Source of the DNA: Niabella soli DSM 19437 | Lineage (GTDB): Bacteria; Bacteroidota; Bacteroidia; Chitinophagales; Chitinophagaceae | Assembly: GCF_000243115.2 (NCBI RefSeq) | Contig: NZ_CP007035.1 | Span: 930,001 to 994,000, forward strand | Direction: 5' to 3' | DNA length: 64,000 bases | Made by a program: the position numbers and the translations under genes | The notes under the pieces: generated by a model | The model's database searches: none | What the model saw: only the letters and a program-made list of their open reading frames with translations | Told to the model about the DNA's origin: nothing | In this document: one piece after another, positions 2,816-25,390 of the stretch | Position numbering within the stretch: position 1 is the first letter of the stretch | Layout of the letters: each line of letters opens with the position of its first letter

Positions 2816-2821
2816 TGAATA

Positions 2822-3748: not shown

Positions 3749-3776
3749 GTATTCGAAAAATACGTTTATTCTTTTA

Positions 3777-5309: not shown

Positions 5310-5336
5310 ATTTAAAAGATTAAATAGTCGCTTTGT

Positions 5337-8660: not shown

Positions 8661-8679
8661 TATTATGTAATACATAATA
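8661..8679. promoter_or_regulatory. 19-bp palindromic operator between susC and gntR
   Basis: TATTATGTAATACATAATA is a perfect odd-length palindrome centred on A8670. The core ATGTnnnACAT fits the TnGTnnnACnA operator type used by FadR-subfamily GntR repressors. It lies 24 bp upstream of the susC start and 76 bp upstream of gntR1, so one dimer could control both directions. The same ATGTnnnACAT core recurs three times upstream of the second operon. Confidence 0.7.
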
Positions 8680-11361: not shown

Positions 11362-11365
11362 AGCG

Positions 11366-11392: not shown

Positions 11393-11403
11393 ATGTCTGA
11401 CAT
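11393..11403. promoter_or_regulatory. GntR operator O1 (ATGTCTGACAT)
   Basis: Palindromic ATGT-CTG-ACAT. It matches the site at 11480-11490 base for base and shares ATGTnnnACAT with the site upstream of susC. It lies upstream of the plus-strand promoter and over the presumed -33 region of gntR2. Confidence 0.65.
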
Positions 11404-11415
11404 TTTAAAATTTAT

Positions 11416-11446
11416 TTTGGAATATCGATGGCGTGCATTAAGTTTG
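11416..11446 (+). promoter_or_regulatory. Promoter of the 14-gene catabolic operon
   Basis: A -33 TTTG at 11416-11419 and a -7 TAAGTTTG at 11439-11446 are separated by 19 bp, an excellent match to the Bacteroidota sigma-A consensus (TTTG-N19-21-TAnnTTTG). The predicted start of transcription falls at about 11453, inside operator O2, leaving a leader of roughly 130 nt to the aldolase ATG. Occupation of O2 and O3 would block initiation or early elongation. Confidence 0.7.
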
Positions 11447-11451
11447 TAAAT

Positions 11452-11462
11452 ATGTACGACAT
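11452..11462. promoter_or_regulatory. GntR operator O2 (ATGTACGACAT)
   Basis: ATGT-ACG-ACAT, a palindrome apart from its centre, directly downstream of the -7 element and overlapping the predicted transcription start. Confidence 0.6.
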
Positions 11463-11479: not shown

Positions 11480-11490
11480 ATGTCTGACAT
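11480..11490. promoter_or_regulatory. GntR operator O3 (ATGTCTGACAT)
   Basis: Second identical copy of the O1 palindrome, 28 bp centre to centre from O2, within the untranslated leader. The three sites lie 59 and 28 bp apart, allowing cooperative binding or looping. Confidence 0.65.
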
Positions 11491-11582
11491 GATAAGAACG
11501 GGTTGTTTGTTTTCAGTGAACGATACAGAATAGATGACCACAAAATTGCCATCATTTACTATTGATTATAACGCGATACAAT

Positions 11583-12485
11583 ATGAATTTTCAGTTTAGC
11601 GGCTTATGGTCGGCCATGTTTACGCCAACGGACGCAACCGGCGCACCCGAAATGGAACAGTTGGAACGGTTAACGGAATTGTTAATAACGCAGGGGCAGG
11701 ACGGTCTTTATATCCTGGGTTCCACTGGGCAGGGTGTATTATTTACGGAAGAGCAGCGGAAAGCCGTGCTGAAGAAAGTAACGCAGGTGGTGGCGGGCCG
11801 TTTGCCGGTAATGGTTCAGGTAGGTGCGCTTACTACTGCCGAGTCTGTAAGGCTTGCGCAGCACGCTGCCACGCATGGAGCAGACGCAATTTCCTCGGTA
11901 GGCCCTATTTACTTTACAGGTTCTGCCGAAAACGCATTACAGCACTACAATGCTATCGCCCGTGCAACAGCGCTTCCTTTTTTCCCTTATCAGTTAGGCA
12001 GCAATACCATGGGGGATATTTCTGTTTTTATTGATAAGTTATTATCGATCCCCAATGTAGCCGGGATGAAGCTGACTACCGGGCAGCTCATGGAAATCAG
12101 TTCCATCCACCTGAAAGCAGGGGAACGTCTGCGGCTGTTCAGCGGAGCAGATGAGCTGATGTGCCATGCAAGCCTTTGTGGCGCCGTGGGAGCCATAGGG
12201 TCCTTTTATAATTTATGGGGACAAGCCTGCCAAAAAGTGTTGCAGTCCTTTAAGAACGGGAATTATGAGCTGGGTAAATCATTCATGCTGGAATTTCAAA
12301 AAACTATTTTATACGTGCTGCCCAATATATGGACTTTTTTCAGGAAGGCGATGCATCTGAAATATGGAATTGATATTGGCCCTGCCAAAGCGCCGCTGGG
12401 AACCAGTCAGAAGGAATGGAGCGATGAAGAGGTACTTGCGATTTCAAATAAAATAGAATCGGTTGCCGGGCTGGTAACGGTTTAA
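11583..12485 (+). CDS. DHDPS/NanA-family aldolase, divergent member
   Basis: 300 residues from ATG at 11583; a TTG start seven codons upstream is possible but less likely. It belongs to the TIM-barrel pyruvate-dependent aldolase/dehydratase family. The Schiff-base Lys is kept at 163 (GMKLTT). The usual GSTGE motif reads GSTGQ (46-50), and the YxxP motif of neuraminate lyase is replaced by YQLG around Tyr136, so it is unlikely to be a plain N-acetylneuraminate lyase. Cleavage of a related nonulosonate or 2-keto-3-deoxy acid is plausible. It is the first gene of the operon; the next gene is 36 bp downstream. The canonical paralogue is at 2822-3748. Confidence 0.85.
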   Translation: MNFQFSGLWSAMFTPTDATGAPEMEQLERLTELLITQGQDGLYILGSTGQGVLFTEEQRKAVLKKVTQVVAGRLPVMVQVGALTTAESVRLAQHAATHGADAISSVGPIYFTGSAENALQHYNAIARATALPFFPYQLGSNTMGDISVFIDKLLSIPNVAGMKLTTGQLMEISSIHLKAGERLRLFSGADELMCHASLCGAVGAIGSFYNLWGQACQKVLQSFKNGNYELGKSFMLEFQKTILYVLPNIWTFFRKAMHLKYGIDIGPAKAPLGTSQKEWSDEEVLAISNKIESVAGLVTV

Positions 12486-12521
12486 GAAAGCTTGTATTTA
12501 ATTTAATAATTGTAAAATCAT

Positions 12522-13685
12522 ATGAACAGCTTTTTGTTTAACAGGCATCAGCGCCGCGGTTTGCTTGTCCACTGTGCAATTGTTTTTTTGATGCTATTGC
12601 CCGTCGCCTCTTCTGCGCAAAAGGCAACGCCGGCAGTTAATGAAGTGATCCATCATGTGGTGTTGCAGCTCCCTCCGGGGCCCGATAATCCACGCAATAG
12701 TGAGGGCTCTTTTGTAACCCTGAAAGATGGACGCATTTTATTTGTGTACTCCCACTATACGGGGAATAATTCGGGCGATCATGCTCCTGCTTACCTGGCG
12801 GGCAGGTATTCTTCAGACGGGGGAAAAACATGGACCGCGCAGGATGTGAAAATTATAGACCGCGAAGGCGGCATGAATGTAATGTCTGTTTCACTGCTGC
12901 GTTTGCGCAACGGAACGATCGCTTTGTTTTATTTAAGAAAGAATTCCACCGTCGATTGCATTCCCGTGGTCCGGTTTTCGAACGACGAGGCAAAGACATG
13001 GAGCGCACCGGTGGATTGTATCACCGATCAGCAGGGCTATTTTGTGTTGAACAACGACCGGGTGATTCAACTGTCTGACGGAAGGCTATTACTGGCCGTT
13101 GCAAAACATTCCAGTCCGGCTGACACAAAATGGCAGGAGAAAGGCGCTTTGTTTGCTTATTATTCTGATGATAACGGTAAGACCTGGACGGCCGGAAAAC
13201 AAGTGCCAACACCGGCAACTATTATTACACAAGAACCGGGGTTGGTTGCCCTGAAGGATGGGCGGATACTGATGTATATAAGGGCCAGTGGCGGTTCGCA
13301 GTATGCGTCCTACTCAAAAGATCGCGGGGCTACCTGGAGCGATGCACTTCCATTTACGTTGAAATCGCCGATCGCCCCGGCCACTATCGAACGCATTCCC
13401 TCCACAGGAGACCTGCTTGCTGTCTGGAACAACAACGACGGCTCCATTGCTACCATCAAAGGAAAGCGAACGCCTTTAACGGTGGCTATTTCAAAAGATG
13501 ATGGAATATCCTGGATCCATATTAAAAACCTGGAAGCAGATCCGGATGGCTGGTACTGCTATACGGCCATTCATTTTTATAAGAACAGTGTATTGCTTTC
13601 GTATTGCGCAGGCAGTCAGCAGGCAAAAACATATTTATCTGTTACGGATATCTCCCGTATCGTATTAACCGATTTGTATAAATAG
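12522..13685 (+). CDS. Sialidase-like BNR/Asp-box protein, secreted
   Basis: 387 residues with an N-terminal hydrophobic signal ending ASSAQ (about 32). Asp boxes SSDGGKTW, SNDEAKTW, SDDNGKTW, SKDRGATW and SKDDGISW mark the propeller. The motif RNSEGSFVTLKDGRILFVY replaces the canonical FRIP start, as in many environmental sialidase-like proteins of unknown specificity. It is expected in the periplasm, releasing or trimming the substrate that this operon consumes. It is 36 bp after the aldolase, and its stop codon runs directly into the next gene. With the genes at the left edge and at 9445 it makes three sialidase-type proteins in the locus. Confidence 0.8.
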   Translation: MNSFLFNRHQRRGLLVHCAIVFLMLLPVASSAQKATPAVNEVIHHVVLQLPPGPDNPRNSEGSFVTLKDGRILFVYSHYTGNNSGDHAPAYLAGRYSSDGGKTWTAQDVKIIDREGGMNVMSVSLLRLRNGTIALFYLRKNSTVDCIPVVRFSNDEAKTWSAPVDCITDQQGYFVLNNDRVIQLSDGRLLLAVAKHSSPADTKWQEKGALFAYYSDDNGKTWTAGKQVPTPATIITQEPGLVALKDGRILMYIRASGGSQYASYSKDRGATWSDALPFTLKSPIAPATIERIPSTGDLLAVWNNNDGSIATIKGKRTPLTVAISKDDGISWIHIKNLEADPDGWYCYTAIHFYKNSVLLSYCAGSQQAKTYLSVTDISRIVLTDLYK

Positions 13686-13693
13686 TGAAAACG

Positions 13694-14482
13694 ATGAACC
13701 GCAGATATTTTCTCGGAAATGTTTGGGTAGCAACCGCAGGAACTTCAATGCTGACAAAAACCGGCTGGGCGTTGCCGGGCCTTGCAGCACAAAACCGGGA
13801 TGACCGCGGGCAACTGGCGCAGCTATTAAAGGCCGGAACGCCGAATAAGTGGCTTTTTACGGGAGATAGTATTACTGCCGGTGTAAAACATACGCACGGC
13901 ATGCGTTCCTATGTTGAGCTCTTTTCCGAACGGATCAGATGGGAATTGGGCAGGGGAAGGGATGCTGTTATTAATACTGCCGTTAGTGGAAATACCAGCA
14001 AAGACCTCGTGAACGATATTCAATGGCGCATACTGCAATACCAGCCGCAGGCAGTATTCATTATGTTAGGCACCAATGATGCTGCGGTGCAAAAACAGGT
14101 ATCTCCCGAACTGTTTAAAAACAATATCGAAACAATAATAAAAAGGGTGCGCAATATAAATGCCGTGCCGGTATTGCTGAGCCCCAATCCCATTGTGGAG
14201 ACAAAGGCGCCGGAGCGCAGCGCACTGAAAGATTATGTTAAGCTTCTGAAGGAAATAGCGGGGTCAGGGTCGCTCGTTTTTGTTGATGTGTGGAAGGAGT
14301 GGAATACCACACTGAGAAAAAAATATAATGGCAGGCAGGATGATCAATTGCTTAACGATCCGTTGCATCCGAATGGTTTGGGTCATAAGGAGATTGCCCA
14401 ATTGCTTTTTAAGGCACTTTCTATTTTTAATGAAAAAGACCCTACTTGCGGGGGAGCTTATTATGAAAACAAGAACTGGTGA
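13694..14482 (+). CDS. SGNH/GDSL hydrolase (probable sugar O-acyl esterase)
   Basis: 262 residues from ATG 13694; a GTG at 13685 would add three residues and overlap the preceding stop. The N-terminus NRRYFLGNVWVATAG resembles a Tat-type signal (RRxFL), followed by a hydrophobic stretch to about 32. Block I is GDSI with nucleophile Ser59, block III is GTND with Asn133, and block V is DPLHP with Asp227 and His230, so the catalytic set is complete. Family role: hydrolysis of ester groups on carbohydrates. In this operon, removal of O-acetyl groups from the sugar acid before uptake is the natural guess. Its end overlaps the next start by 20 bp, indicating translational coupling. Confidence 0.83.
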   Translation: MNRRYFLGNVWVATAGTSMLTKTGWALPGLAAQNRDDRGQLAQLLKAGTPNKWLFTGDSITAGVKHTHGMRSYVELFSERIRWELGRGRDAVINTAVSGNTSKDLVNDIQWRILQYQPQAVFIMLGTNDAAVQKQVSPELFKNNIETIIKRVRNINAVPVLLSPNPIVETKAPERSALKDYVKLLKEIAGSGSLVFVDVWKEWNTTLRKKYNGRQDDQLLNDPLHPNGLGHKEIAQLLFKALSIFNEKDPTCGGAYYENKNW

Positions 14483-15374
14483 ATATATAACAGCAATACA
14501 AAGTGGCACTACCGGCCCGCGCGTATTGATCGTTGCCGGAGTACACGGTGATGAGTATGAGCCTATGCTTGCGGTTATGAATTTACGCAAGGAAATTCAG
14601 GAGATCCTGGGCCGCGGAACGGTTACGCTCATCGCAGTAGCCAATGGATCAGCCTATCGGGCGGGAACACGAACGGGTAGCGATGCACGGGATCTGGCGC
14701 GGACCTGTCCCGGGAAACAGAACGGTACAGAAACAGAGGTGGCAGCCTTTCTTCTTTCGAATTACATCCGGGAATGCGATTATCTGATTGATCTGCATAC
14801 CGGGGGGACGCTGTTTGAATTATTCCCTTTATGCGGGTACATGCTGCACCCGGACAAGGAGATCCTTAAAGCGCAGCGCCTGATGGCGGCGGCATTTAAC
14901 CTTCCCCTGGTTTGGGGTACGGATGCCCGGCCCGAAGGAAGAACCTTATCAGTGGCCAGAGATAGCGGTATCCCGGCTATTTATGCTGAATACGGAGGCG
15001 GGAATGAGGTGCGTGATTCTATCGTTGATGCTTATGTTAAAGGCTGTTTGGGGGTGCTGGCGCATCTCAATATGCTGAAAGTTGATGTCTTTAATGCCAG
15101 CAACAGTGAAGTGGTGTACCGGGTGGAAGATGACCAGCCCGATAGCGGCTTTTTGCAGGGAAAGATGTTGTCGGCCTTTGAAGGAATATTTATTCCCCGG
15201 GTAAAAGTAGGGGCAACGGTTGAGGAAGGAGCGGAATGGGGTACTGTTTTTGACCCGGTAAAGGGCGGCGAACATCCGGTTTTTGCAAAGGCATCCGGGC
15301 TGGTACTGTTTGTTAGAAAACATCCGAAAGTAGCTGTGGGCGAGTCTTTGGGCGGCATATTAAAAATAAAATAA
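14463..15374 (+). CDS. AstE/AspA-family (M14-like) zinc deacylase
   Basis: 303 residues from ATG 14463. A longer frame begins at 14328, but its first 45 codons are read inside the SGNH gene and are not protein-like. Zinc-site motif HGDE puts His28 and Glu31 in place, with the third ligand His112 in DLHTGG. The family (succinylglutamate desuccinylase/aspartoacylase) hydrolyses N-acyl bonds of amino acids and small molecules in the cytoplasm. Here it would fit removal of an N-acyl group from an amino sugar acid or from a downstream fragment. No signal peptide. It overlaps the esterase gene by 20 bp and is 14 bp from the following SDR gene. Confidence 0.82.
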   Translation: MKTRTGEYITAIQSGTTGPRVLIVAGVHGDEYEPMLAVMNLRKEIQEILGRGTVTLIAVANGSAYRAGTRTGSDARDLARTCPGKQNGTETEVAAFLLSNYIRECDYLIDLHTGGTLFELFPLCGYMLHPDKEILKAQRLMAAAFNLPLVWGTDARPEGRTLSVARDSGIPAIYAEYGGGNEVRDSIVDAYVKGCLGVLAHLNMLKVDVFNASNSEVVYRVEDDQPDSGFLQGKMLSAFEGIFIPRVKVGATVEEGAEWGTVFDPVKGGEHPVFAKASGLVLFVRKHPKVAVGESLGGILKIK

Positions 15375-15388
15375 TTTAACGATCAGAC

Positions 15389-16204
15389 ATGAATGATTTT
15401 GCAGGGGTATTCCTATTGACCGGTGCTGCTGGCGGCATTGGCCGGGCTACAGCAGTAAAGTTTGCCTGTGAAGGGTTTGCGCTCGCACTGGTGGATCTGG
15501 ACGGTGATGGGCTGCAGGAAACTGCCGGATTGATTCGCTCTTATAATTGTGAATTTCTTTTATTACAAGGCGATTTGCAGGATATGGAATTTATCGGGGA
15601 GATCGTTGATCGTTGTCTGTTAAAGTGGGGCCGCATAGATGTTTTGGTAAATAATGCGGTATGGCGTTCTGTTGAAACGATAGATACTATTTCACCCGAA
15701 AATTGGGAAAAAGCGATCCGGGTCAATCTTACTGCCCCGGCCTTCCTGTCAAGGACCGTCGCGAATGCAATCGTATCCTCGGGAAAAACGGGTACGATCA
15801 TAAACGTGTCCAGTATAATGGCTGATTTTGTTGGAGGCTATGCGCCAGCCTATACGGTTTGCAAAGGGGCGCTTGAAAGTCTTACATACGAACTGGCGGT
15901 CTTGTATGGCCCTAAAGGGATCCGGGTGGTTGCCATCAGACCGGGCAATGTGACCACTTCGCTGAGCAATGATTATACAACTGAGCAGGGGCAAAATATA
16001 AGTGATGCTATTGAAAAGGAAATTAATGACAGAACGCCCCTGGGCAGGGCAGCAACGCCGGAAGAAATTGCAGATTTTATTTTTTTAGTCAGTTCCCCCG
16101 CCGCATCCTATCTGACAGGCACTACCATTACTGTGGATGGGGGGCTGTCGAGAAATTTTAATTCTTATACCATTAAAAAACAGCTAAAACCTGACGCATT
16201 TTGA
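15389..16204 (+). CDS. Short-chain dehydrogenase/reductase
   Basis: 271-residue classical SDR with nucleotide-binding motif TGAAGGIG (11-18), NNA at 88-90, catalytic Ser at 141/142 and YxxxK as Tyr155/Lys159. The Asp in VDLDGD after the second strand suggests NAD(H) preference. C-terminal GTTITVDGG is typical of the sugar-alcohol/acid oxidoreductase branch. The substrate is unknown; oxidation of a hydroxyl of the imported sugar or its cleavage product is expected from context. The stop overlaps the next gene by 4 bp (TTGA), the coupled-translation arrangement. Confidence 0.85.
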   Translation: MNDFAGVFLLTGAAGGIGRATAVKFACEGFALALVDLDGDGLQETAGLIRSYNCEFLLLQGDLQDMEFIGEIVDRCLLKWGRIDVLVNNAVWRSVETIDTISPENWEKAIRVNLTAPAFLSRTVANAIVSSGKTGTIINVSSIMADFVGGYAPAYTVCKGALESLTYELAVLYGPKGIRVVAIRPGNVTTSLSNDYTTEQGQNISDAIEKEINDRTPLGRAATPEEIADFIFLVSSPAASYLTGTTITVDGGLSRNFNSYTIKKQLKPDAF

Positions 16205-17319
16205 AAGGTATCTGGAAATATAAAGCCTTGCTGCCGGAAGTCAGTTCCAGGCACCGGATCACACTGGGAGAAGGGAATACCCCTTTGATCCGGTCGCGCA
16301 ATATTGGGAAGCTTCTGGGGTTGGAAGAACTGTATTTTAAACTGGAAAATCTGAACCCTACCGGTTCTTATAAAGACCGGTTCGCCGCGCTGGCGGTTGG
16401 AAACCTGCTTATGCGAAAAGCAAAGTTCTTTCTGGCAACCTCAAGTGGCAATACGGGTGCTGCTTTGGCTGCATACGGCGCCGCATCAGATATCCGCTGC
16501 TTTTTGTCTGTTGTAGATGGAGCGCCGGTTGGCAAGGTGGAGCAGATGGGCATTTACGGGGCTGATATTTTCATGATAAAGAATTTTGGGATCTCCCGGA
16601 CTGTTACGGAAAATGTCATGCGTACGCTTCAGGATCTGGCAAAACAATCCGGTACTAATGTTGAAATAAGTGCTTATTGCTATTCTCCTATTGGTATGGC
16701 AGGGGTGGAAACGATCGCTTTTGAAATAGCCGAAGCATTGGCGCAGGTACGGCATGTGTTTGTTCCTGCAGGTGGTGGCGGGCTTACGCTTGCCATTATA
16801 AAAGGATTCGAAAAATGGAGAAAGCTGCATGCGGGGTTTAATAAGCCCTCTGTTTTTTGTGTACAGCCTGATGGGAATAATACCATTGCCGGTGCGTTGG
16901 AGGCAGACCGGTCTTTAATAAAAGGATTGGCAAAAAGCACAACTACGATCAGCGGACTACAAGTGCCCAACATACTGGATGGGAACAGCATTATTTCAAA
17001 GGCCCGGTCCGGCAAAGTAAAAGGAGCCCTGGTCCCGGATGCGGCGGTATATGAATGCCAGCAACAACTGGCGCAATTAGAAGGGATCTACTGTGAGCCG
17101 GCGGGAGCCGTGGCATTGACGGGTTTGAAAAAGGCATTAAGCACAGGGGGGATCAGGCGGAAGGATAAAATAGTGTGTTTGGTTACAGGCCATGGATTTA
17201 AAGACCCTCGTTCGGCAAGCCGTATTTTCTCCGGCGATGCCTGCAGGTATTTTAATAAGGCAATCGAATCCATCGCTCATGTTAAAAACAGTATTTCAGA
17301 TATTAAAAATTTTGTATAG
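16201..17319 (+). CDS. Threonine synthase/dehydratase-like PLP enzyme (fold type II)
   Basis: 372 residues from a TTG start that overlaps the SDR stop by 4 bp. PLP Lys58 lies in NPTGSYKDR, and the phosphate-binding loop SSGNTG follows. A later glycine-rich loop (PAGGGG) also matches threonine synthase and serine/threonine dehydratase relatives. Such enzymes carry out beta- or gamma-elimination/replacement on amino acids. A RidA protein is encoded 2 bp downstream, which fits an eliminase that makes a reactive enamine. It is probably not the housekeeping threonine synthase, because the neighbours are catabolic. The true substrate is unknown. Confidence 0.8.
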   Translation: MKGIWKYKALLPEVSSRHRITLGEGNTPLIRSRNIGKLLGLEELYFKLENLNPTGSYKDRFAALAVGNLLMRKAKFFLATSSGNTGAALAAYGAASDIRCFLSVVDGAPVGKVEQMGIYGADIFMIKNFGISRTVTENVMRTLQDLAKQSGTNVEISAYCYSPIGMAGVETIAFEIAEALAQVRHVFVPAGGGGLTLAIIKGFEKWRKLHAGFNKPSVFCVQPDGNNTIAGALEADRSLIKGLAKSTTTISGLQVPNILDGNSIISKARSGKVKGALVPDAAVYECQQQLAQLEGIYCEPAGAVALTGLKKALSTGGIRRKDKIVCLVTGHGFKDPRSASRIFSGDACRYFNKAIESIAHVKNSISDIKNFV

Positions 17320-17321
17320 CA

Positions 17322-17696
17322 ATGAAAGAAGTGGTAGCCGGGGATGCAATTCCTCAAAGTCATTTACCGTTTTCGCCGGCCATCCGGAGCGGTGATTTTT
17401 TATTTATTTCCGGACAGGCCTCTGTAGATATGGAAGGGAAAATTATAAACGGGAGCTTTGAAGAAGAGTGCCGGCGCTCCTTCGATAATTTAAAGTGCAT
17501 TATAAAAGGAGCGGGCCTATCGATGGAAGACGTAGTGCAGGTGCGCAACTATGTGGCCCGCCAGGAAGATCTGGCTGCCTTCAACACGATCTACAAAGAA
17601 TATTTTAGTGCGCCTTTTCCTGCAAGAACCACGCTGATCGGGTGTTTGGGTACTGTATTGAAATTTGAAGTGGATGCAATTGCACGTTACAAATGA
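17322..17696 (+). CDS. RidA/YjgF family enamine/imine deaminase
   Basis: 124-residue RidA-family protein. It has the key carboxylate-binding Arg102 in FPART and the conserved Glu116 in FEVDAIA, the usual active-site pair of deaminating members. Role: hydrolyses 2-aminoacrylate-type imines to keto acids and ammonia, protecting PLP enzymes and completing deamination. It sits between the PLP enzyme (2 bp upstream) and the M81 hydrolase (4-bp overlap downstream). It therefore probably works on the product of the PLP enzyme and is pathway-dedicated, not general housekeeping. Confidence 0.88.
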   Translation: MKEVVAGDAIPQSHLPFSPAIRSGDFLFISGQASVDMEGKIINGSFEEECRRSFDNLKCIIKGAGLSMEDVVQVRNYVARQEDLAAFNTIYKEYFSAPFPARTTLIGCLGTVLKFEVDAIARYK

Positions 17697-19165
17697 AAAA
17701 AAAGATCGCAATAATAGGTATTTATCACGAGTCCAATACGTTTAATAAACGGCCGACGGTTTATGCTGATTTCGAAAACGGTCATTTATTAAAAGGGGAC
17801 GCTATTGTTGCGCACTATAAAGAGGCTCATCATGAAATAGGCGGGTTTATTCAGGCAATGGATCATGAACAGGTGGAACTGGTGCCGGTTTTATATGCTG
17901 AAGCGACTCCGGGAGGATCCATTGCAACGGAAACTTACCTGCGCCTGAAAGCGGAGCTTGGAGCCCTGTTGCAATCAGTATTGCCCGTGGATGCTGTATT
18001 GGTGGCACCGCATGGTGCGGGGGTCTGTGATGCTTACCCTGATATGGACGGGGACTGGCTTTCCTTTGTGCGGACGTTGGTGGGTGTGGAAGTGCCAATT
18101 GTTGGAACGCTGGACCCTCATGCCAATGTGAGCCCGCTAATGATTGCCGCAACGAACGCGCTCTTTGCCTATGCGACGAATCCGCATTTAGATCAGCGGG
18201 CAACTGGCATCAGGGCGGCCCAATTGTTGAACCAAATGCTTTTTGAGAACATGGCAGTGCAGCAGCAACTTATTCAGTTGCCACTTTCCATCAGTATAGA
18301 ACAGCAAAATACCGGTAATGAGCCTTGTATTTCCCTTTACCGGCAAGTGCAACAAATTGCGGCAGATGCCGGCGTGTTACATGCAAGTATCATCCTGGGT
18401 TTCCCGTATGCCGACGTCCGGGAAATGGGCACCTCCCTGGTGGTGATAACTACAAAGGCGCCTGCTTCTGAAAACCTGATTATGGAATTGAGGTCCTGCT
18501 TCCTTAGCCGGTTGCAGCAATTTACCGGCGCGAAAGTCCGGCTGCAAACAATTTTACCCGATGCTGCTTCATTACAAAAACCGGTGCTGTTGCTGGATAT
18601 GGGGGATAACGTGGGTGGTGGTTCCGCCGGTACAAGTATGTACCTGATGGATCTGTTGGAAGCTGCGGAGCAAACCCGGGCCTGTATCTGCATTACGCAT
18701 GCGCCAACAGTAGCATGGATTTCGCGCTTGGAAAAAGGCGCCCGTTTTGACATTTCTTTTGAACAAATAGATGCGGTAAACAGCCCAGCGTCTTACGCTG
18801 TTACACTGGTTGGATTACAGGACGGTTTTTTTACCGAGCCGGATCCAAGACATGGCGGGCAAACGCAATTCAATATGGGAAAAGTGGCGGTACTGCACAC
18901 AGACCATCAGAATATCATCATTATTGCATCACTTAAGATACCTCCGTTCAGCAGCAGACAGTTAACCAGTTTGGGGATAGTAGTGGAGGAACTGAACTGG
19001 GTTATAGCAAAAGGAGTGAATGCTCCCATAGCGGCCTTTAAGGATACCTGTGCAACAATTTTGCAGGTGGATACGCCGGGGGAAACCCGTGCGGACGTTA
19101 CCACCTTTATTTTTAAAAACAGAAGAGTGCCGTTATATCCATTTGAAGCGATCAACAATGTATAA
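17693..19165 (+). CDS. M81 family metallohydrolase (MlrC-like)
   Basis: 490 residues, the usual size of the M81/MlrC family, first known from microcystin breakdown. N-terminal IGIYHESNTF (7-17), then HGAG (107-110), then the metal-binding pattern DPH (Asp141, His143) and His165 in ATNPHLDQ. No signal peptide, so cytoplasmic. The family is a zinc amidohydrolase/peptidase, and many members of unknown substrate occur in sugar-acid and D-amino-acid catabolic clusters. In this operon it may open an amide or lactam derived from the amino sugar. It overlaps RidA by 4 bp and the SMP-30 gene by 8 bp. Confidence 0.82.
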   Translation: MKKKIAIIGIYHESNTFNKRPTVYADFENGHLLKGDAIVAHYKEAHHEIGGFIQAMDHEQVELVPVLYAEATPGGSIATETYLRLKAELGALLQSVLPVDAVLVAPHGAGVCDAYPDMDGDWLSFVRTLVGVEVPIVGTLDPHANVSPLMIAATNALFAYATNPHLDQRATGIRAAQLLNQMLFENMAVQQQLIQLPLSISIEQQNTGNEPCISLYRQVQQIAADAGVLHASIILGFPYADVREMGTSLVVITTKAPASENLIMELRSCFLSRLQQFTGAKVRLQTILPDAASLQKPVLLLDMGDNVGGGSAGTSMYLMDLLEAAEQTRACICITHAPTVAWISRLEKGARFDISFEQIDAVNSPASYAVTLVGLQDGFFTEPDPRHGGQTQFNMGKVAVLHTDHQNIIIIASLKIPPFSSRQLTSLGIVVEELNWVIAKGVNAPIAAFKDTCATILQVDTPGETRADVTTFIFKNRRVPLYPFEAINNV

Positions 19166-19991
19166 AGATCATATTTTTCAGGAATTTAAGGGAAGAGCCA
19201 TTACGCTTCCGCAACCTTTTTATACCGAAGGCCCGGTAATAGACAGGGAGGGCAATTTGTTTGTCACAAATCTGAAAGGAGGCCAAATCCTGAAAATTGA
19301 CAAAAACGGGGCTGCCACAGAATGGGCACGGACCACTTGTCCGAACGGGCAGATGATTAATGAAAAGGGAGATCACCTGGTTTGTGATAGTCTGGAAGGG
19401 GCTATAAAACAATTTGATAAAAGCGGGAGGCTGGATAAAATAGCGGTGAGGGGCTTAATTTCCGGCTATAGGATCAGTTGCCCCAACGATCTGATCAGCG
19501 ATACTAACGGGGGATTCTTTTTTACCGATTCGGTCCGGCATTGCGGTATTGTCGGACATGTGGATCGCACCGGCACAGCAAGGATCATCGCCAAAGAATT
19601 GGACTACCCTAACGGACTTGCGATCAACCCGGTCCGGGGCCAATTATATATTGCGGAAAGCTACAAAAACAGAATTCTGGTGGCCGACCTGCGACTGCCC
19701 GGAAGCACTCCGGAAGTTTTTTGCGATTTGCCGGTCAATCCTTCCGGGAAAAAAAGTGGCAACCTGCCGGATGGCCTGGCTGTGGATTGCTTTTACAATC
19801 TTTGGGTGGCACATTATGGAATGTCCTGCTTATGGGTTTTAAATGACAGGGGTATGTGCATTGGTAAATATGAAACGGGCATCCCCCTTACCTCTAATGT
19901 TTTTATGAATGATAACTGGTTATTGGTTACAGGAGGAACAGGCGAGCCCGGTCCGGGGATGATAAAAATTGTAAAAATGCGCAGAAGATGA
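19158..19991 (+). CDS. SMP-30/gluconolactonase-like six-bladed propeller
   Basis: 277 residues from ATG 19158; the frame is open further upstream but inside the M81 gene. Metal ligands line up with SMP-30/regucalcin: Glu24 (YTEGP), Asn152 (YPNGLAI) and Asp205 (LPDGLAVD), plus Asn110 (CPND). Expected activity: hydrolysis of a sugar-acid lactone in the cytoplasm. This would fit an oxidation step by one of the SDRs or the aldo/keto reductase producing a lactone. It overlaps the preceding gene by 8 bp and the next by 4 bp (ATGA). No signal peptide is seen. Confidence 0.83.
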   Translation: MYKDHIFQEFKGRAITLPQPFYTEGPVIDREGNLFVTNLKGGQILKIDKNGAATEWARTTCPNGQMINEKGDHLVCDSLEGAIKQFDKSGRLDKIAVRGLISGYRISCPNDLISDTNGGFFFTDSVRHCGIVGHVDRTGTARIIAKELDYPNGLAINPVRGQLYIAESYKNRILVADLRLPGSTPEVFCDLPVNPSGKKSGNLPDGLAVDCFYNLWVAHYGMSCLWVLNDRGMCIGKYETGIPLTSNVFMNDNWLLVTGGTGEPGPGMIKIVKMRRR

Positions 19992-20917
19992 CGAGTAATT
20001 TTGAAATTTCCCCATTAACACTCGGAACGGTTTCGCTGGGGCTTAACTACGGCGTTTTTGAAGGGCAGCGTCAGCCGGATAAGCGAACGGCGGTGCATTT
20101 GATCGATACCGCAATAAAAAACGGGATCACCTGTTTTGATACCGCCCGGGAATATGGAACAGCGGAAACACTGTTGGGCGAGCTGCTATCGGGGACTTCC
20201 GTGGGGCAGGTTTCGATTGTAACAAAGTTTAAAATATCGAAAGAGGCTGTAGGGGATTTTTCACTGGCGAAAGAACAGGCGCGCAGCAGTGTTTTAGCAT
20301 CGCTTCAACAATTGAAGCTTGCCCGGCTGCCCTTTTGTTTATTTCATATGGTTTCAGATTATAACACAGATGTAGTTGCCGAAATGCTTCCGGGCCTTTT
20401 CGTTTCACTGAAGCAGGAGGGGCTGATCGGTTCCGGCGGTATTTCAATTGATAATCTGTCCGAGTTGCCGCGGCTGGCATTCCTTCCGGAAGTCAGCGTA
20501 CTGCAACTGCCGCTTAATATTTTTGATCAGCGCTTCCCCGAAGATCATCCGGTTTGGGAGCAACTCGAAAAGGAAAATAAAATTGTTTTTGCACGGAGCG
20601 TCTTCTTAAAAGGACTGCTCCTCAGGAACCCCTCAGCACTTACCGGGAATTTACAGCCGGCTGCTTTTTACCTGGAAGGGCTAGCTGCTTTTGCAAAAAG
20701 ATGCAAGATGAGCATTGCTCAATTCTGTTTTTCCTATGTACGGAATTTTAAAGCGATTGACAGTATCGTTGTGGGCGCCGATAATGAAGCCCAGCTCCTG
20801 GAGAATATTGGCTTAATGCGCACGCCCCCGATTCCGCAGCAAATTTTAGAAGAGGCGAAATTTTTTTTTAAGGATGTTCCGGAGCAGTTGCTTATTCCTA
20901 AAAATTGGAAATTGTAA
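19988..20917 (+). CDS. Aldo/keto reductase
   Basis: 309-residue (beta/alpha)8 AKR. The catalytic tetrad is visible as Asp51, Tyr56 (DTAREYG), Lys80 (IVTKFK) and His120 (CLFHMV). It is an NAD(P)-dependent oxidoreductase acting on a carbonyl of a sugar or sugar acid. From memory, AKRs of this general kind are also found in nonulosonic-acid biosynthesis clusters, so here it may reverse or adapt such chemistry. The start ATG overlaps the SMP-30 stop (ATGA). The next SDR follows after 3 bp. Confidence 0.83.
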   Translation: MTSNFEISPLTLGTVSLGLNYGVFEGQRQPDKRTAVHLIDTAIKNGITCFDTAREYGTAETLLGELLSGTSVGQVSIVTKFKISKEAVGDFSLAKEQARSSVLASLQQLKLARLPFCLFHMVSDYNTDVVAEMLPGLFVSLKQEGLIGSGGISIDNLSELPRLAFLPEVSVLQLPLNIFDQRFPEDHPVWEQLEKENKIVFARSVFLKGLLLRNPSALTGNLQPAAFYLEGLAAFAKRCKMSIAQFCFSYVRNFKAIDSIVVGADNEAQLLENIGLMRTPPIPQQILEEAKFFFKDVPEQLLIPKNWKL

Positions 20918-20920
20918 AAA

Positions 20921-21712
20921 ATGAATCATTTGTTTAGTCTTGAAGATAAAGTAGTGCTGATCACCGGCGGAACCGGTTTGTTTGGGAAACCGATGTCGCT
21001 GGCCCTGGCAGAAGCCGGGGCGCAGGTGATCATTGCTTCCCGGAATATGGAAGCCTGTACGCGTTATGCGAAGGAGTTGAAAGGATTGGGTTTCAAAGCG
21101 GCCGCCTTGCCGTTAGATCTTAAAGAGGAATCCTCAATTACTGATTGTGTTGCCGCAATACTCAATACCTATAAAAAGATTGACATATTGGTTAACAATG
21201 CGGTTTCAAGAGAAGGCTTTAAGAACCTGGCTGATCTGCAAAAAGAAGAATGGGAAAATGCACAGGCGGTAAATGCAACAGGGCTTATGCTGTTGACAAA
21301 AGCAGTGTTAGCGCATATGTGTTCCCGCCGCCGGGGCAATATTATAAATATAGGATCGATACAGGGAGCGGTCGGGCCTAATTTTCCGGTCTACGGCACA
21401 ACCGGCATGACGAGCCCGGTTAATTATACTTATGATAAATGGGCGCTGGTCGGATTTACAAAATGGATTGCCAATTATTATGGGAAATTTAATATCCGCT
21501 GCAATTGTCTTAGCCCCGGAGGGTATGGCCCCGGTGTTAACGAAACTTATGGAGAGACGGCCTTTACGACGAATTATAAACAATTAACTCCACTGGGCAG
21601 ATTCGCTAACGACAATGATATCAAAGGTCCGATCGTGTTCCTGGCTTCCGAAGCGTCTGCTTATATTACAGGGCACAATCTTTTGGTGGACGGGGGCTGG
21701 ACAAGCTGGTAA
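20921..21712 (+). CDS. Short-chain dehydrogenase/reductase with MTSPV insertion (PtmA-like)
   Basis: 263-residue SDR. Nucleotide motif TGGTGLFG (15-22), catalytic Ser146, Tyr169 and Lys173. Just before the active-site Tyr it carries YGTTGMTSPVNY, an insertion I recall from the PtmA-type SDRs encoded with legionaminic/nonulosonic acid genes; this is recollection, not a search result. It ends in the common TGHNLLVDGGWTSW tail. It lies 3 bp after the AKR and 9 bp before the NanM-like gene. The likely role is redox on the nonulosonate or its amino-sugar fragment. Confidence 0.83.
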   Translation: MNHLFSLEDKVVLITGGTGLFGKPMSLALAEAGAQVIIASRNMEACTRYAKELKGLGFKAAALPLDLKEESSITDCVAAILNTYKKIDILVNNAVSREGFKNLADLQKEEWENAQAVNATGLMLLTKAVLAHMCSRRRGNIINIGSIQGAVGPNFPVYGTTGMTSPVNYTYDKWALVGFTKWIANYYGKFNIRCNCLSPGGYGPGVNETYGETAFTTNYKQLTPLGRFANDNDIKGPIVFLASEASAYITGHNLLVDGGWTSW

Positions 21713-21721
21713 TGATTGTAT

Positions 21722-22789
21722 ATGGAAAAGAAAATGTTTTTTATTTGTATGTTATCCATGCTGTTAATGAACAAGGGCATTGCCCAGGTCCGGTTGAGCT
21801 ATAATTTAGTGCCTTCGATTCCGGACAGGGAAGGCTTTGCAGGGATGTTCGCGGGCGTAAGCAATGGTTTTGTTGTAGCAGCGGGAGGCGCTAATTTTCC
21901 GGATAAGATGCCCTGGGAAGGAGGTAGTAAAATGTGGTATAACGACCTGTTCCTTTTTAATAAACAAACCGGCCAATGGGGAAGAAGCCCTGTTTCGCTT
22001 CCAGGAAAGCGCGCCTATGGAGTTACCGCCTCTTATAATGAAAAAGTAATTTTAGTGGGAGGGAGCGATGAAAAAAAACATTACAGTGAAGTTTATTCCA
22101 TTAAAGTCGAGAATAGTGGGATAGTACTGGATTCGATGGCGTCGATGCCCGTTGCGCTGGCCAATATGACGGGTGCTCTTGCCGGCGATTTTTTGTTCGT
22201 TGCCGGGGGAACGTTTGGCCCTGATGGCGGTCCCGTTACTACTTTTTTAGCTCTGGATCTGAAAAAAAATAAGTGGGTCCAATTGCCATCCTGGCCGGGA
22301 CCGGAACGTATGAACGCCGTGTCTGCGGGGGTAGGCAACCGTTTTTTTATTTTCAGTGGTATACAAACCGAAAATTCAAAAGAGGGTGTTAAGCGGAATG
22401 TTCTGGATGATGGATATTGTTTTTCGCCCATCCTTAAAAACGGTGAATTAGTGGGCGGTAATTGGCATAAAATTGAAAAGATCCCATGGGGCATTGCGGC
22501 GGGGCCTGGTCCGGCTCCGGTGGTTCAAGATCGCTTTGTGATCTTCCCCGGTGGGTTGGATAATGCCACGGCCCAGCATAAAGACCCGCTTACGCATCCG
22601 GGGTTTATTTCAGATATATTATCATATGACACAAAATTAAACAGGTGGAGTACAATTGGCCATCTTCCAAAAACGGAAATGCGGCTAACGGCGCCCGTTG
22701 TTGCGTATGACGGATCTTTTTGGATCATCAACGGAGAAGTAAAGCCTGGAAAGCGCACCCCTACGGTACTTTCGATAAAAATTAAATAA
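21722..22789 (+). CDS. nanM: Kelch-propeller mutarotase (NanM-like, N-acetylneuraminate epimerase family)
   Basis: 355 residues from ATG 21722 (a TTG at 21716 is less likely). Signal peptide ends at about IAQ (22), so it is periplasmic. Kelch repeats are visible, and the stretch GGANFPDKMPWEGG with WYNDLF is the signature of the cyclically permuted sialic-acid mutarotase group. Role in E. coli NanM: converts the alpha anomer released by sialidase to the beta anomer taken up by transporters. Its place in this operon, not the nanA operon, is the strongest single pointer that the second operon handles a sialic-acid-like sugar. It is 51 bp before the aminotransferase gene. Confidence 0.84.
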   Translation: MEKKMFFICMLSMLLMNKGIAQVRLSYNLVPSIPDREGFAGMFAGVSNGFVVAAGGANFPDKMPWEGGSKMWYNDLFLFNKQTGQWGRSPVSLPGKRAYGVTASYNEKVILVGGSDEKKHYSEVYSIKVENSGIVLDSMASMPVALANMTGALAGDFLFVAGGTFGPDGGPVTTFLALDLKKNKWVQLPSWPGPERMNAVSAGVGNRFFIFSGIQTENSKEGVKRNVLDDGYCFSPILKNGELVGGNWHKIEKIPWGIAAGPGPAPVVQDRFVIFPGGLDNATAQHKDPLTHPGFISDILSYDTKLNRWSTIGHLPKTEMRLTAPVVAYDGSFWIINGEVKPGKRTPTVLSIKIK

Positions 22790-22840
22790 AAGAACAGTAT
22801 AAGTATTGTTCGCATTAAATGATCTTGTAAAAGCTATAAA

Positions 22841-24139
22841 ATGACCAGGTATCAGCAGTCGAAACAATTATTGGAGCGTGCGGGTAAAGTGCTTGCAGGA
22901 GGCGTTTCCTCAGAGTTTAGAAAATATAATCATCCTCATGCCTTGTTTTATTTATCCGCAAAAGGCAGCCGTATTGTGGATGTTGATAACAATGAATATT
23001 TAGATTTTACATTAAGCCAGGGACCGATGATCCTGGGACATTCCCATCCCGAAGTGCTGGAAGCCGTCGCCAATTATTCGGTCCGGGGGCAACTTTATGC
23101 TGGTCAGCATTTACAGGAATTGGAGCTTGCGGAGAAAATCGCGGAGCTCATCCCTTCTGCGGAACGGATCCGTTTTTGCCTCGACGGGTCGGAGGCTGTG
23201 CAAACGGCCTTGCGGGTGGCAAGAGCAAAAACAGGGAAAAATAAATTTTTAAGATTTGAGGGACATTATCACGGGTGGCTGGATAATGTGGCCTGGGGCA
23301 TATCCGCACCAGATCCGGAAGCACTGGGAGCGGTGAACGATCCTGTTGCCTTCCCCTGGTCGCAGGGGATCGTTCCGTCCACAAGGGACGAGTTCTTTAT
23401 TTGTTCCTGGAATAACCTGAAGTTGCTTGAAGAGCAATTGGAACGCCATCATCACGAGATTGCGGCGATCATTACCGAGCCGGTTATGTGTAACAACGGT
23501 TGTATAGAGCCTGAAGACGGCTTTCTCAAAGGAATGAGGAAGTTGTGCGATCAATATGGGATTGCCTTAATTTTTGATGAAGTGATTACCGGTTTCAGGC
23601 TGGGTTTGGGCGGGGCGCAGTCTTTTTATAATATCGTTCCTGATCTGTCTGTTTTTGCAAAAGCGATGGGGAGCGGCTATCCTATAAGCGCCATTGTAGG
23701 TAAATATGAATGGATGGAGCTGATCGAAAAATCGATCGTAATACATGCGGGTACGATGAACTCCAGTTGCCCGATGATAGCAGCCTCGCTGGCTACATTG
23801 CGGGTATTGGAGCGGGACAATCCCTATCCGCAACTATTTGCTTTAGGCCAGCGCCTGATGGACGGACTGCGGAATGCGGCAAAACAATCAGGACAAAACC
23901 TGATCGTTACCGGCCCGGGCCCTATGTTTGTAACCGCTTTTGGAGGAGGGGAGATGATGCGGAATTACCGGGATACGCTAAAAACGGACCGGCTCAAATT
24001 GTCGCGGTTTATAGCAGCGATGCACGATCGAAATATCCGGATCATCGGAAGAGGACTTTGGTATATCAGTGCAGCACATACAGAAGAGGATATTGATCAT
24101 GCCATTAAAATAGCCACTGAGGTATTATCGGGCTTATAA
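22841..24139 (+). CDS. Class III aminotransferase (glutamate-1-semialdehyde aminomutase-like)
   Basis: 432 residues. PLP-binding Lys274 in AKAMGSGYP and Asp246 in FDEVITGFR match the GSA-aminomutase branch of fold-type-I class III enzymes. It is not expected to be HemL, which is a housekeeping enzyme with other neighbours. Expected reaction: transfer or removal of an amino group at a terminal or secondary carbon of an amino sugar or amino acid intermediate. Class III enzymes of this branch also occur in some nonulosonate biosynthesis loci (recollection). It is immediately followed, with no spacer, by the MFS gene. Confidence 0.84.
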   Translation: MTRYQQSKQLLERAGKVLAGGVSSEFRKYNHPHALFYLSAKGSRIVDVDNNEYLDFTLSQGPMILGHSHPEVLEAVANYSVRGQLYAGQHLQELELAEKIAELIPSAERIRFCLDGSEAVQTALRVARAKTGKNKFLRFEGHYHGWLDNVAWGISAPDPEALGAVNDPVAFPWSQGIVPSTRDEFFICSWNNLKLLEEQLERHHHEIAAIITEPVMCNNGCIEPEDGFLKGMRKLCDQYGIALIFDEVITGFRLGLGGAQSFYNIVPDLSVFAKAMGSGYPISAIVGKYEWMELIEKSIVIHAGTMNSSCPMIAASLATLRVLERDNPYPQLFALGQRLMDGLRNAAKQSGQNLIVTGPGPMFVTAFGGGEMMRNYRDTLKTDRLKLSRFIAAMHDRNIRIIGRGLWYISAAHTEEDIDHAIKIATEVLSGL

Positions 24140-25390
24140 ATGTTGGGGAGAAGTATTATGATACCGGAAATGAGCATAGGGAATAATAGGAAGAGGGCCT
24201 GGATGGTTGTGGGGCTCCTGTTTGTAATTGCCCTGCTGAATTATATCGACCGCACGATGATTACAACCATGCGCACTTCTATTGTAACGGCTATCCCAAT
24301 GACCGATGCAGAGTTTGGATTGCTGACGGCAGTGTTTCTGTGGGTATATGGTGCCTTTAGCCCCATTGCGGGTTTTCTTGCAGATCGGTTTAGCAGAAGT
24401 AAAGTAATACTGCTGAGCTTGTTGATCTGGTCGGTTGTCACCTGGATGACTGCCTATGCAAGTTCCTATCATGAGTTGTTGCTGACGCGGGCTTTAATGG
24501 GGCTAAGTGAAGCCTGTTATATGCCGGCAGCCCTGGCGCTGATCATGGATTATCATAAAGGAAATACCCGGTCGTTGGCGACAGGTATCCATATGGCAGG
24601 GATTATGACTGGGCAAAGTTTAGGTTTTTTAGGCGGCTGGATTGCTGAAAGTCATCGCTGGAATACTGCTTTTTTTGTATTCGGCAGCTTTGGTGTTACC
24701 TATACCATATTGTTGTTCTTTATTTTGAAGGATGCGCCAACACAATTAAAAACTGATAAGGCGCCGGAGGAAACAAAGGCGAATTTCTTGCAGGCGCTGA
24801 AAACACTTTTTGGGAAACGATCTTATATGCTGCTGGTTGTATTTTTTGCCCTGGTAAGTGTGATGGCCTGGCTGGTAGTAGGTTGGCTACCTACTTATTT
24901 CCAGGAAAAATTTCATCTTTCTCAAACGGAAGCCGGGGTATACGCAACGGGTTGTGTTTCTGCTGCAGCCATAGTGGGGGTGCTCGCGGGCGGAGTATTA
25001 GCTGATCTGTGGAGCCGGCGTAACAGGAGGGCCCGCATATGGGTGCCGGCAATTGGTCTGGCTATCGCGGCTCCGGCGGTATTCCTGGCAAGTTACGCAA
25101 CGGCGTTGGCCGTTGCGGTGGTTTGTTTTGTAGTGTACGCATTTACAAAATCTTTTACAGATACGAATACGATGCCCATATTAAGTATGATTGTTGATGA
25201 CCGGTATCGTGCCACAGGATACGGTATTCTGAATTTCTGCGGCACGCTGGTGGGTGGGCTTGGATTATATTTTGGAGGCGCCTTACGCGATGCGCATATT
25301 CCGCTGGGCACTATTTATCAAAGTGCTGCAGTCTTAATTGTACTGGCGGCACTGGCCGTCATAAGTATTAAGGGAAAAGCTACAGAATAG
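24140..25390 (+). CDS. MFS sugar-acid transporter (paralogue of 1568-2815)
   Basis: 416 residues with 12 hydrophobic segments. LLNYIDRTMI near the N-terminus and RSLATGIHMAG in the middle closely parallel the transporter of the nanA operon, so the two are paralogues of the ACS-type MFS group. An alternative start at M7 (24158) is possible. It is the last gene of the 14-gene operon, directly adjacent to the aminotransferase stop. It presumably takes the dedicated substrate of this operon across the inner membrane. No hairpin terminator is obvious in the 260 bp that follow. Confidence 0.85.
   Translation: MLGRSIMIPEMSIGNNRKRAWMVVGLLFVIALLNYIDRTMITTMRTSIVTAIPMTDAEFGLLTAVFLWVYGAFSPIAGFLADRFSRSKVILLSLLIWSVVTWMTAYASSYHELLLTRALMGLSEACYMPAALALIMDYHKGNTRSLATGIHMAGIMTGQSLGFLGGWIAESHRWNTAFFVFGSFGVTYTILLFFILKDAPTQLKTDKAPEETKANFLQALKTLFGKRSYMLLVVFFALVSVMAWLVVGWLPTYFQEKFHLSQTEAGVYATGCVSAAAIVGVLAGGVLADLWSRRNRRARIWVPAIGLAIAAPAVFLASYATALAVAVVCFVVYAFTKSFTDTNTMPILSMIVDDRYRATGYGILNFCGTLVGGLGLYFGGALRDAHIPLGTIYQSAAVLIVLAALAVISIKGKATE

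Follow-up and report, generated by a model that had tools for sequence, protein, structure and literature searches.

Intracellular sialic acid catabolism has been described as two routes to N-acetylglucosamine-6-phosphate together with a detour through an anhydro sugar, as far as the available portions of the sources go (PMC10017367, PMC8754123; the known routes are also described in the available part of PMC2693436). By the same partial accounts, the nan pathway of Bacteroidota relies on NanL/NanA, NanE-II and RokA (PMC10017367, PMC8754123). For chitin, an oxidative route is encoded by the ong cluster of Pseudoalteromonas prydzensis. In the accessible text, N-acetyl-D-glucosaminate is deacetylated by a D-aminoacylase-like enzyme and then converted by a fold-type-III, pyridoxal phosphate (PLP)-dependent deaminase to 2-keto-3-deoxygluconate (KDG); the authors liken the route to D-amino acid degradation and find the RidA gene of the cluster essential, leaving its role open (PMC9537276). 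N-acylmannosamine 1-dehydrogenase (EC 1.1.1.233), which converts N-acetylmannosamine (ManNAc) to its lactone with NAD, appears as an assay enzyme in the available part of PMC4016182. Mannosaminate is made by Gluconobacter according to the accessible text of PMC9171043, and PMC4557933, in its available part, concerns UDP-ManNAc dehydrogenase. Here we analyse a stretch of 64,000 nucleotides (the window) from Niabella soli DSM 19437, of the family Chitinophagaceae, covering bases 930001-994000 of a genome (G000) that consists of a single contig of 4.70 Mb with a completeness of 99.89. In this window, 14 genes on the plus strand (positions 11583-25390) form an operon that, in our estimate, has about an even chance of encoding a further route for sialic acid that is oxidative and avoids phosphorylation, that is, for N-acetylneuraminic acid (Neu5Ac) or a close N-acyl relative. 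No pathway of this kind was found in the open-licence literature searched for the enzyme and the intermediates, a search that leaves the subscription literature largely outside and absence unproven.

The operon begins with DHDPS2, an N-acetylneuraminate-lyase-like aldolase (11583-12485; PF00701, 184.3 bits), followed by BNR2, an exported sialidase-like beta-propeller (12522-13685; PF13088, 111.7 bits), and an SGNH/GDSL esterase that is probably exported and is a candidate O-acetylesterase (13685-14482; PF13472, 101.9 bits). Next are an AstE/DoeB-type deacylase, which we propose to be an N-acetyl-mannosaminate deacetylase (14463-15374; PF24827, 90.5 bits vs a cut-off of 25), the short-chain dehydrogenase SDR1, a proposed ManNAc 1-dehydrogenase (15389-16204; PF13561, 178.8 bits), and a threonine-synthase-like PLP enzyme of fold type II, the proposed D-mannosaminate ammonia-lyase (16201-17319; PF00291, 225.2 bits). 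These are followed by the imine/enamine deaminase RidA (17322-17696; PF01042, 83 bits), an M81 (MlrC-like) zinc hydrolase (17693-19165; PF07364, 304 bits) and an SMP-30-type lactonase, for which we propose the role of N-acetyl-mannosamino-lactonase (19158-19991; PF08450, 85.5 bits). The remaining genes, again all on the plus strand, encode an aldo-keto reductase (AKR; 19988-20917; PF00248, 100.4 bits), a second short-chain oxidoreductase, SDR2 (20921-21712; PF13561, 155.5 bits), a probably exported NanM-type mutarotase (21716-22789; PF24996, 129.7 bits vs 45), the class-III (GSAM-like) aminotransferase AT3 (22841-24139; PF00202, 201.9 bits) and the transporter MFS2 (24140-25390; PF07690, 204.8 bits), whose nearest named family is a sugar-acid (galactonate) transporter at a score below the cut-off (TIGR00893, 152.1 vs 395). 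With ortholog-supported starts the intergenic spacings are 36, -1, -20, 14, -4, 2, -4, -8, -4, 3, 3, 51 and 0 bp. This is an exact match to the gaps of 0-51 bp and the overlaps of 20, 4, 4, 8 and 4 bp in an earlier annotation of this DNA (the original prediction), and all 14 families that it named were recovered in our Pfam and NCBIfam profile searches. The best PDB matches of BNR2 are sialidases. Read by eye, the N-terminus of BNR2 is signal-like and that of the GDSL esterase is of an RRYFLG type; on such a reading of the N-termini, BNR2, the esterase and NanM look exported, MFS2 looks to be a membrane protein and the other ten products look cytoplasmic. Neither an epimerase (PF07221) nor a NagA, NagB or RokA-type kinase family was detected with Pfam among the 14 genes, which agrees with the earlier view that this is not a standard nan pathway and rules out a plain duplicate of that pathway; NagB is encoded in another part of the genome.

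In the route that we propose, the exported BNR2, GDSL esterase and NanM would prepare the sugar, and MFS2 would import it. DHDPS2 would then split sialic acid into pyruvate and ManNAc, SDR1 would oxidise ManNAc to the lactone and SMP-30 would open the lactone to N-acetyl-mannosaminate; a pair such as SDR1 and SMP-30 is what one would look for where an aldose is oxidised to a lactone that is then opened. The AstE-type deacylase would take the acetyl group off N-acetyl-mannosaminate, after which the loss of water and ammonia, catalysed by the PLP enzyme while RidA removes the imine, would yield KDG, and cleavage of KDG would give pyruvate and a triose. We infer every substrate, every step and the order of the steps from the clustering, the families, the conserved active-site residues and the sharing of operators that we observed.

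The reasoning behind the scheme is stereochemical. C2 of ManNAc is S, which makes N-acetyl-D-mannosaminate an N-acetyl-L-amino acid with a 3-hydroxyl group, while C2 of N-acetyl-glucosaminate is R. The substrates of DoeB and other deacylases of the AstE type are N-acetyl-L-amino acids, while PLP enzymes of fold type II remove the amino group from 3-hydroxy-L-amino acids. Since ManNAc is S at C2, its acid can use L-amino-acid enzymes, whereas the gluco epimer (C2 R) needs D-amino-acid enzymes. We put forward, at somewhat less than an even chance, a third sialic acid route that would run from Neu5Ac through ManNAc and N-acetyl-D-mannosaminate to KDG, using no epimerase and no phosphorylation before KDG.

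The distribution of the operon was followed with the PLP enzyme as marker (E <= 1e-40). It was found in 8 of the 59 relatives searched, the window's own genome included, each time in one of the 17 Niabella genomes; in sampled searches, again counting that genome, carriers numbered 2 among 395 for the phylum and 5 among 396 for the order, figures that are no rates for the group since these samples lacked the other seven Niabella carriers. A single scan of genome contigs for the PLP enzyme yielded two Niabella loci, and plasmid searches with the PLP enzyme, M81, DHDPS2 and the AstE-type deacylase returned matches that were all below 60% identity. In total, 12 carriers from three genera and two families were compared, comprising the eight Niabella genomes, one genome of another genus in the same family (G665) and three of one genus in a second family (G217, G587 and G627). 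All 14 genes are collinear in four of the seven other Niabella carriers (G015, G009, G006 and G005). Of the remaining three, G014 has a cluster without the GDSL esterase and NanM; in G016 the contig stops within the tenth gene (AKR), and SDR2 and AT3 are on a separate contig; and G010 has 11 genes in an altered order, with weaker BNR2-like (30%) and NanM-like (24%) matches that were not counted. A core of seven genes, encoding the AstE-type deacylase, SDR1, the PLP enzyme, DHDPS2, RidA, M81 and SMP-30, is clustered in all 12 carrier loci; depending on the gene, the lowest identity to the window is 41-58%. The operon thus behaves as one conserved unit, as the original prediction had supposed; homologous clusters with scattered genes, which it had said would count against it, were looked for and the core genes proved unscattered.

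Outside the core, 9 of the 12 carriers have a NanM-like match with an identity of 28% or more within their stretch. SDR2 has a match at E <= 1e-70 in 10 of the 12 and in none of nine non-carrier Niabella genomes, and AT3 is likewise found in 12/12 carriers vs 0/9 non-carriers (three of these nine being 72-83% complete). AT3 was nevertheless rejected as a core enzyme since G217, G587 and G627 hold a close copy solely in another cluster. G000 and G665 also hold a copy in that other cluster, which surrounds the AT3 paralogues in five loci (L084, L085, L086, L087 and L088); in L085 it includes a second RidA, 3HCDH-type dehydrogenases, an M19 dipeptidase, and ceramidase-like and D-serine-dehydratase-like proteins, partly common to the other four loci. 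In G010, a pyruvate phosphate dikinase gene directly downstream of AT3 (L028:12751-15156) would suit a pathway that yields pyruvate. An HpcH/HpaI-type aldolase is encoded in each of the three second-family clusters, two of which also encode an RraA-like protein; the one such aldolase that was scored against NCBIfam was nearest to 2-keto-3-deoxy-rhamnonate aldolases, below the cut-off (126.1 vs 441). Several BNR2-like genes adjoin the cluster in each of these three genomes (L038, L042 and L044).

The link to sialic acid or a related nonulosonate, which the original prediction had drawn, is upheld by the lyase, by the operators and by the neighbours of the operon in relatives. The best PDB matches of DHDPS2 are chains named N-acetylneuraminate lyase. 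Aligned to 1nal, and with the residue blocks of sialate lyases taken from the available part of PMC4016182, the carboxylate-binding GST-G, the Tyr, the Schiff-base Lys and the sugar-binding G-x-D-E are kept in DHDPS2 of all 12 carriers. The Ser of its GSxYN motif is present in 11 of the 12, being Thr in G627, and two further motifs, GSTGQG and FPYQLG, are found in 12/12 and differ from the aligned E. coli lyase. Three relatives encode a fusion protein in which a NanM-type Kelch domain is joined to a sodium-solute symporter (L039:4579-7101; L045:5808-8345; L040:7348-9876).

Divergent from the operon lies GntR2, an FCD-type GntR regulator (10651-11364, minus strand; PF07729 and PF00392), whose start at about 11364 was inferred from orthologs, the listed open reading frame (ORF) with its start at 11541 being over-long. 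Its nearest named family is NanR, at a score below the cut-off (NF003011, 72.4 bits vs 260). Three palindromic operator-like sites of the form ATGTNNNACAT lie between GntR2 and the operon (11393-11403, 11452-11462 and 11480-11490), inside the over-long ORF and upstream of the ortholog-supported start, and a fourth operator-like site (8665-8675) stands in front of SusC/NanO. Across the eight Niabella carrier stretches, all 19 of 19 ATGTNNNACAT sites precede the operon, GntR2, SusC/GntR1 or (in G010) AT3 by at most 350 bp, vs a summed expectation of about 3.5 in first-order random sequences; the SusC preceded by a site in G014 is a distant one (26%). The other four carriers have three copies, two within genes and one that is intergenic and fronts no mapped gene. 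In G006 a NanO/NanU pair adjoins the operon itself, the operator is present in both promoters, and the NanU of G006 reaches 502.9 (curated cut-off 425); the sole DHDPS1 match in that stretch is at 33%. Scoring of SusD proteins from G014 and G009 gave no hit at E <= 1e-20. The shared placing of regulator and operators ties the operon to the sialic acid loci. The single strong promoter of the original prediction stood in part. A candidate site, TTG-N19-TAAGTTTG, is present at 11417-11446 on the plus strand and matches what we take to be the Bacteroidota promoter form, TTG-N19-TAnnTTTG, but sigma-70-like sites are no commoner than in shuffles (27 vs a mean of 24.7, sd 5.1).

Active-site residues are also conserved in other core enzymes. 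In the AstE-type deacylase, which matches five PDB sequences including DoeB structures, an HxxE...H site is present, and H73, E76 and H157 (counting from 14328, where the ORF starts), which we take to be the zinc ligands, are invariant in 12/12 carriers. Likewise invariant in 12/12 are Y155 and K159 of SDR1, K58 of the PLP enzyme and E60, N188 and D241 of SMP-30 (counting from the ORF start at 19050), the last three being presumably metal-related positions. In overall sequence the PLP enzyme is closest to threonine synthases. The four solved threonine synthases compared share NPxRxEGQKT, GNAGN and I-R/K-IG-N/S-P, which a profile alignment and the 12 sequences show to be replaced in the PLP enzyme by PxxMxGV, GGGGL and GLQVP, so that it has GGGG where the solved enzymes have GNAG. 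M81 has E13, D141, H143 and H165, invariant in 12/12, at the positions of the four MlrC zinc ligands (PMC9982164, in whose available text the last ligand is printed as both H191 and H196). The MlrC general base, E70, is not conserved in M81, the aligned position 44 being Glu in the window and variable across 11 rows; the invariant E48, near that position, could stand in as general base. M81 is also below the microcystinase equivalog cut-off (94.2 vs 999, NCBIfam).

Several results weigh against the oxidative sialic acid route. DHDPS2 is below the curated NanA equivalog cut-offs (167.7 vs 281 and 142.2 vs 382), the AstE-type deacylase is below that for DoeB (92 vs 402.7) and the PLP enzyme is below that for the dehydratase of the hydroxyectoine module (66.4 vs 413.35; all NCBIfam). 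The provisional ManNAc dehydrogenase sequence used for comparison is only 29% identical to SDR1 over 252 residues, an ordinary value for SDRs, and had no match in the plasmid collection at E <= 1e-30. The scheme has no step for M81, which is in all 12 cores, nor for AT3, AKR and SDR2. At its lower end, no KDG kinase was detected with Pfam among the 14 genes, and the Niabella operon has no dedicated KDG aldolase; an Eda-type aldolase is present in 21 of 21 genomes and is hence uninformative. A longer operator form, TATGTNNNACATA, is not enriched genome-wide, eight genomes together having 38 sites vs 57 for a control with the reversed form, and G000 having 4 vs 6. Lastly, the AGE-type epimerase family is over its cut-off in 12/12 carriers (18 of 21 genomes), as is NagB (12/12 carriers and 19 of 21 genomes, with any match in 21/21), so that the standard route is available in every carrier and a second route is unneeded for Neu5Ac itself. 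The four enzymes left over, the unestablished orthology of SDR1 and the available canonical route together keep alive two further explanations, a diamino nonulosonate and a sialic acid with a different acyl group.

The first of these, a substrate of the legionaminic or pseudaminic type, was the leading reading of the original prediction and gives a role to every enzyme. The lyase would release a 2,4-diacetamido-trideoxyhexose that is then oxidised and opened, AstE and M81 would remove the two acyl groups, the PLP enzyme would take the 2-amino group, AT3 would convert the 4-amino group to a keto group, SDR2 would reduce it, an aldolase would split the product and AKR would reduce lactaldehyde. 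The presence of two amide-hydrolase families alongside an aminotransferase, and of a neighbouring canonical nan locus that already handles Neu5Ac, would suit such a substrate. However, DHDPS2 keeps the Asp-Glu pair of the Neu5Ac-lyase sugar-binding block in 12/12, the operator is shared with NanU and the operon has its ties to NanM, the cluster stretches of the second family lack AT3 in all three cases, SDR2 has no match at the above threshold in 2 of the 12 carriers, and the chemistry fits N-acetyl-mannosamine without a second amino group. We do not place the diamino substrate first and regard it as unlikely. A variant sialic acid bearing another N-acyl or O-acyl group, for example N-glycolyl, would pass through the same oxidative steps, M81 and AstE each taking off a different acyl group, and would explain why both amide-hydrolase families are in the core of all 12 carriers, why a GDSL esterase accompanies them and why a separate locus exists for Neu5Ac. 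Nothing observed distinguishes between acyl groups, and three plasmid neighbourhoods of M81 that we examined were too varied to name a substrate; in our estimate this variant is slightly less probable than the diamino substrate and also unlikely.

The operon might instead act on no nonulosonate at all, but on a ready-made 2-acylamino sugar acid or a hexosamine, with DHDPS2 serving as the terminal 2-keto-3-deoxy sugar-acid aldolase. DHDPS2 does form a divergent subfamily by its GSTGQG and FPYQLG motifs, MFS2 is nearest to a sugar-acid transporter family, and a separate HpcH/HpaI aldolase lies within the cluster solely in the three relatives of the second family. This would leave unexplained the NanA-type residues of DHDPS2, the operator shared with NanO/NanU and the NanM-like match in 9/12 carrier stretches, and we consider it slightly less probable again. 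That the genes are unrelated neighbours brought together by chance is very improbable and, for the core, already refuted. Although the SDR, AKR, GDSL and MFS families are common and promiscuous, the seven core genes remain clustered in every carrier even where identities are at their lowest, the genes overlap and the operator is common. Of the readings considered, the oxidative degradation of Neu5Ac or a close N-acyl relative is the one that we prefer.

To the left of the operon, on the minus strand, are MFS1, the lyase-like DHDPS1, NanU (SusD) and NanO (SusC) (1568-8636), the left part of what looks like a canonical Bacteroidota nan locus; the SusD of the window is NanU by curated score (492.9 vs a cut-off of 425). 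Beyond the left edge of the window the locus goes on (L054:9804-16551) with a sialidase that has the neuraminidase N-terminal domain (BNR_assoc_N), a GDSL/SASA esterase protein, an AGE-type epimerase and a GH20 protein, and the sole PF07221 match in G000 (C1:926805-927785) is found there. Since this canonical locus lies alongside, the 14-gene operon would be an additional system. The original prediction mentioned neither this locus nor GntR2 and the operator-like sites next to it. A role as substitute for a missing canonical route was ruled out, the epimerase family and NagB being over cut-off in 12/12 carriers. A third sialic-acid-like locus (L077:6048-18785; G000:C1:3819-3832 kb) contains genes for a GntR regulator, SusC, SusD, an aldolase of the lyase-like kind, a NanM-like protein and BNR proteins; its SusD is NanU-like at 185.6 bits, below 425, and the locus carries one operator-like site. 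For the longer operator form it is the position of the copies that counts. The TATGTNNNACATA sites of G000 comprise two at the present region, one before this third locus and one at 639518. The last of these (TATGTAGAACATA, G000:C1:639518-639530) recurs with the same sequence in several other Niabella genomes, and three further TATGTNNNACATA sites in relatives are placed before a SusC/SusD pair (G010) and within genes (G016 and G014). A sialidase-like BNR protein of G010 (L027:8005-9357) has FCIP; GH33 sialidases usually carry FRIP. On a Sulfitobacter plasmid (L090), genes for a threonine/serine dehydratase and a Rid protein lie close to one for an AstE-type deacylase; this trio is an independent case of such a grouping and is possibly a general module for N-acyl-3-hydroxy-L-amino acids.

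If the proposed route is correct, it bypasses the epimerase, the kinase, NagA and NagB, and surveys that look for clustered nanA with nanK/nanE, or with nanE-II and rokA, would miss organisms that use it. The ManNAc dehydrogenase activity would gain a place in a pathway, and a simple rule would be suggested, by which the recruitment of one or the other family of amino-acid enzymes depends on how the amino sugar is configured at C2. The proposal also supplies candidate substrates for the AstE-type deacylase, the threonine-synthase-like PLP enzyme and the M81 enzyme.

The pairing of an AstE-type N-acetyl-amino-acid deacetylase with a PLP dehydratase is familiar from the hydroxyectoine degradation module EutB/EutE(DoeB). 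The operon is like that module in this pairing, with both of its enzymes far below the equivalog cut-offs. The reaction proposed for SDR1 is that of EC 1.1.1.233, and an identity of 29% is no evidence of orthology. With the Bacteroidota nan pathway, as the available text presents it (PMC10017367, PMC8754123), the operon and its neighbours share a sialate lyase, NanM, NanO/NanU, an MFS transporter and sialidase-like proteins; unlike that pathway, the operon has dehydrogenases, a lactonase, a deacylase, a PLP enzyme and RidA in place of the epimerase, kinase and NagB families. An oxidoreductase in a sialic acid locus is also a feature of the 2,7-anhydro-Neu5Ac route, but NanOx, in the part of the account available, regenerates Neu5Ac from the anhydro sugar, and the canonical route takes over from there (PMC10017367). 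The closest parallel is with the ong cluster, again within the accessible text (PMC9537276). As there, an N-acetyl-hexosaminate would be deacetylated without phosphorylation and a PLP enzyme would deaminate the product to KDG, and RidA (here in 12/12), an outer-membrane transporter and a regulator are found in the cluster. The ong cluster also contains KdgK and GH20 (PMC9537276), whereas no kinase family is found among the 14 genes of the operon. Chitin oxidation supplies the ong acid in finished form, as the gluco (D) epimer (PMC9537276), whereas here the acid would arise inside the cell from ManNAc; in place of the D-aminoacylase-like deacetylase and the fold-type-III deaminase of ong, the operon has an AstE type (PF24827) and a PALP fold (PF00291). 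L-type counterparts at both steps are what would be expected if the substrate were the manno epimer of the ong substrate, and it is in this sense that we suggest, tentatively and at a little under even chances, that the route proposed for Niabella is the mirror image at C2 of the ong route.

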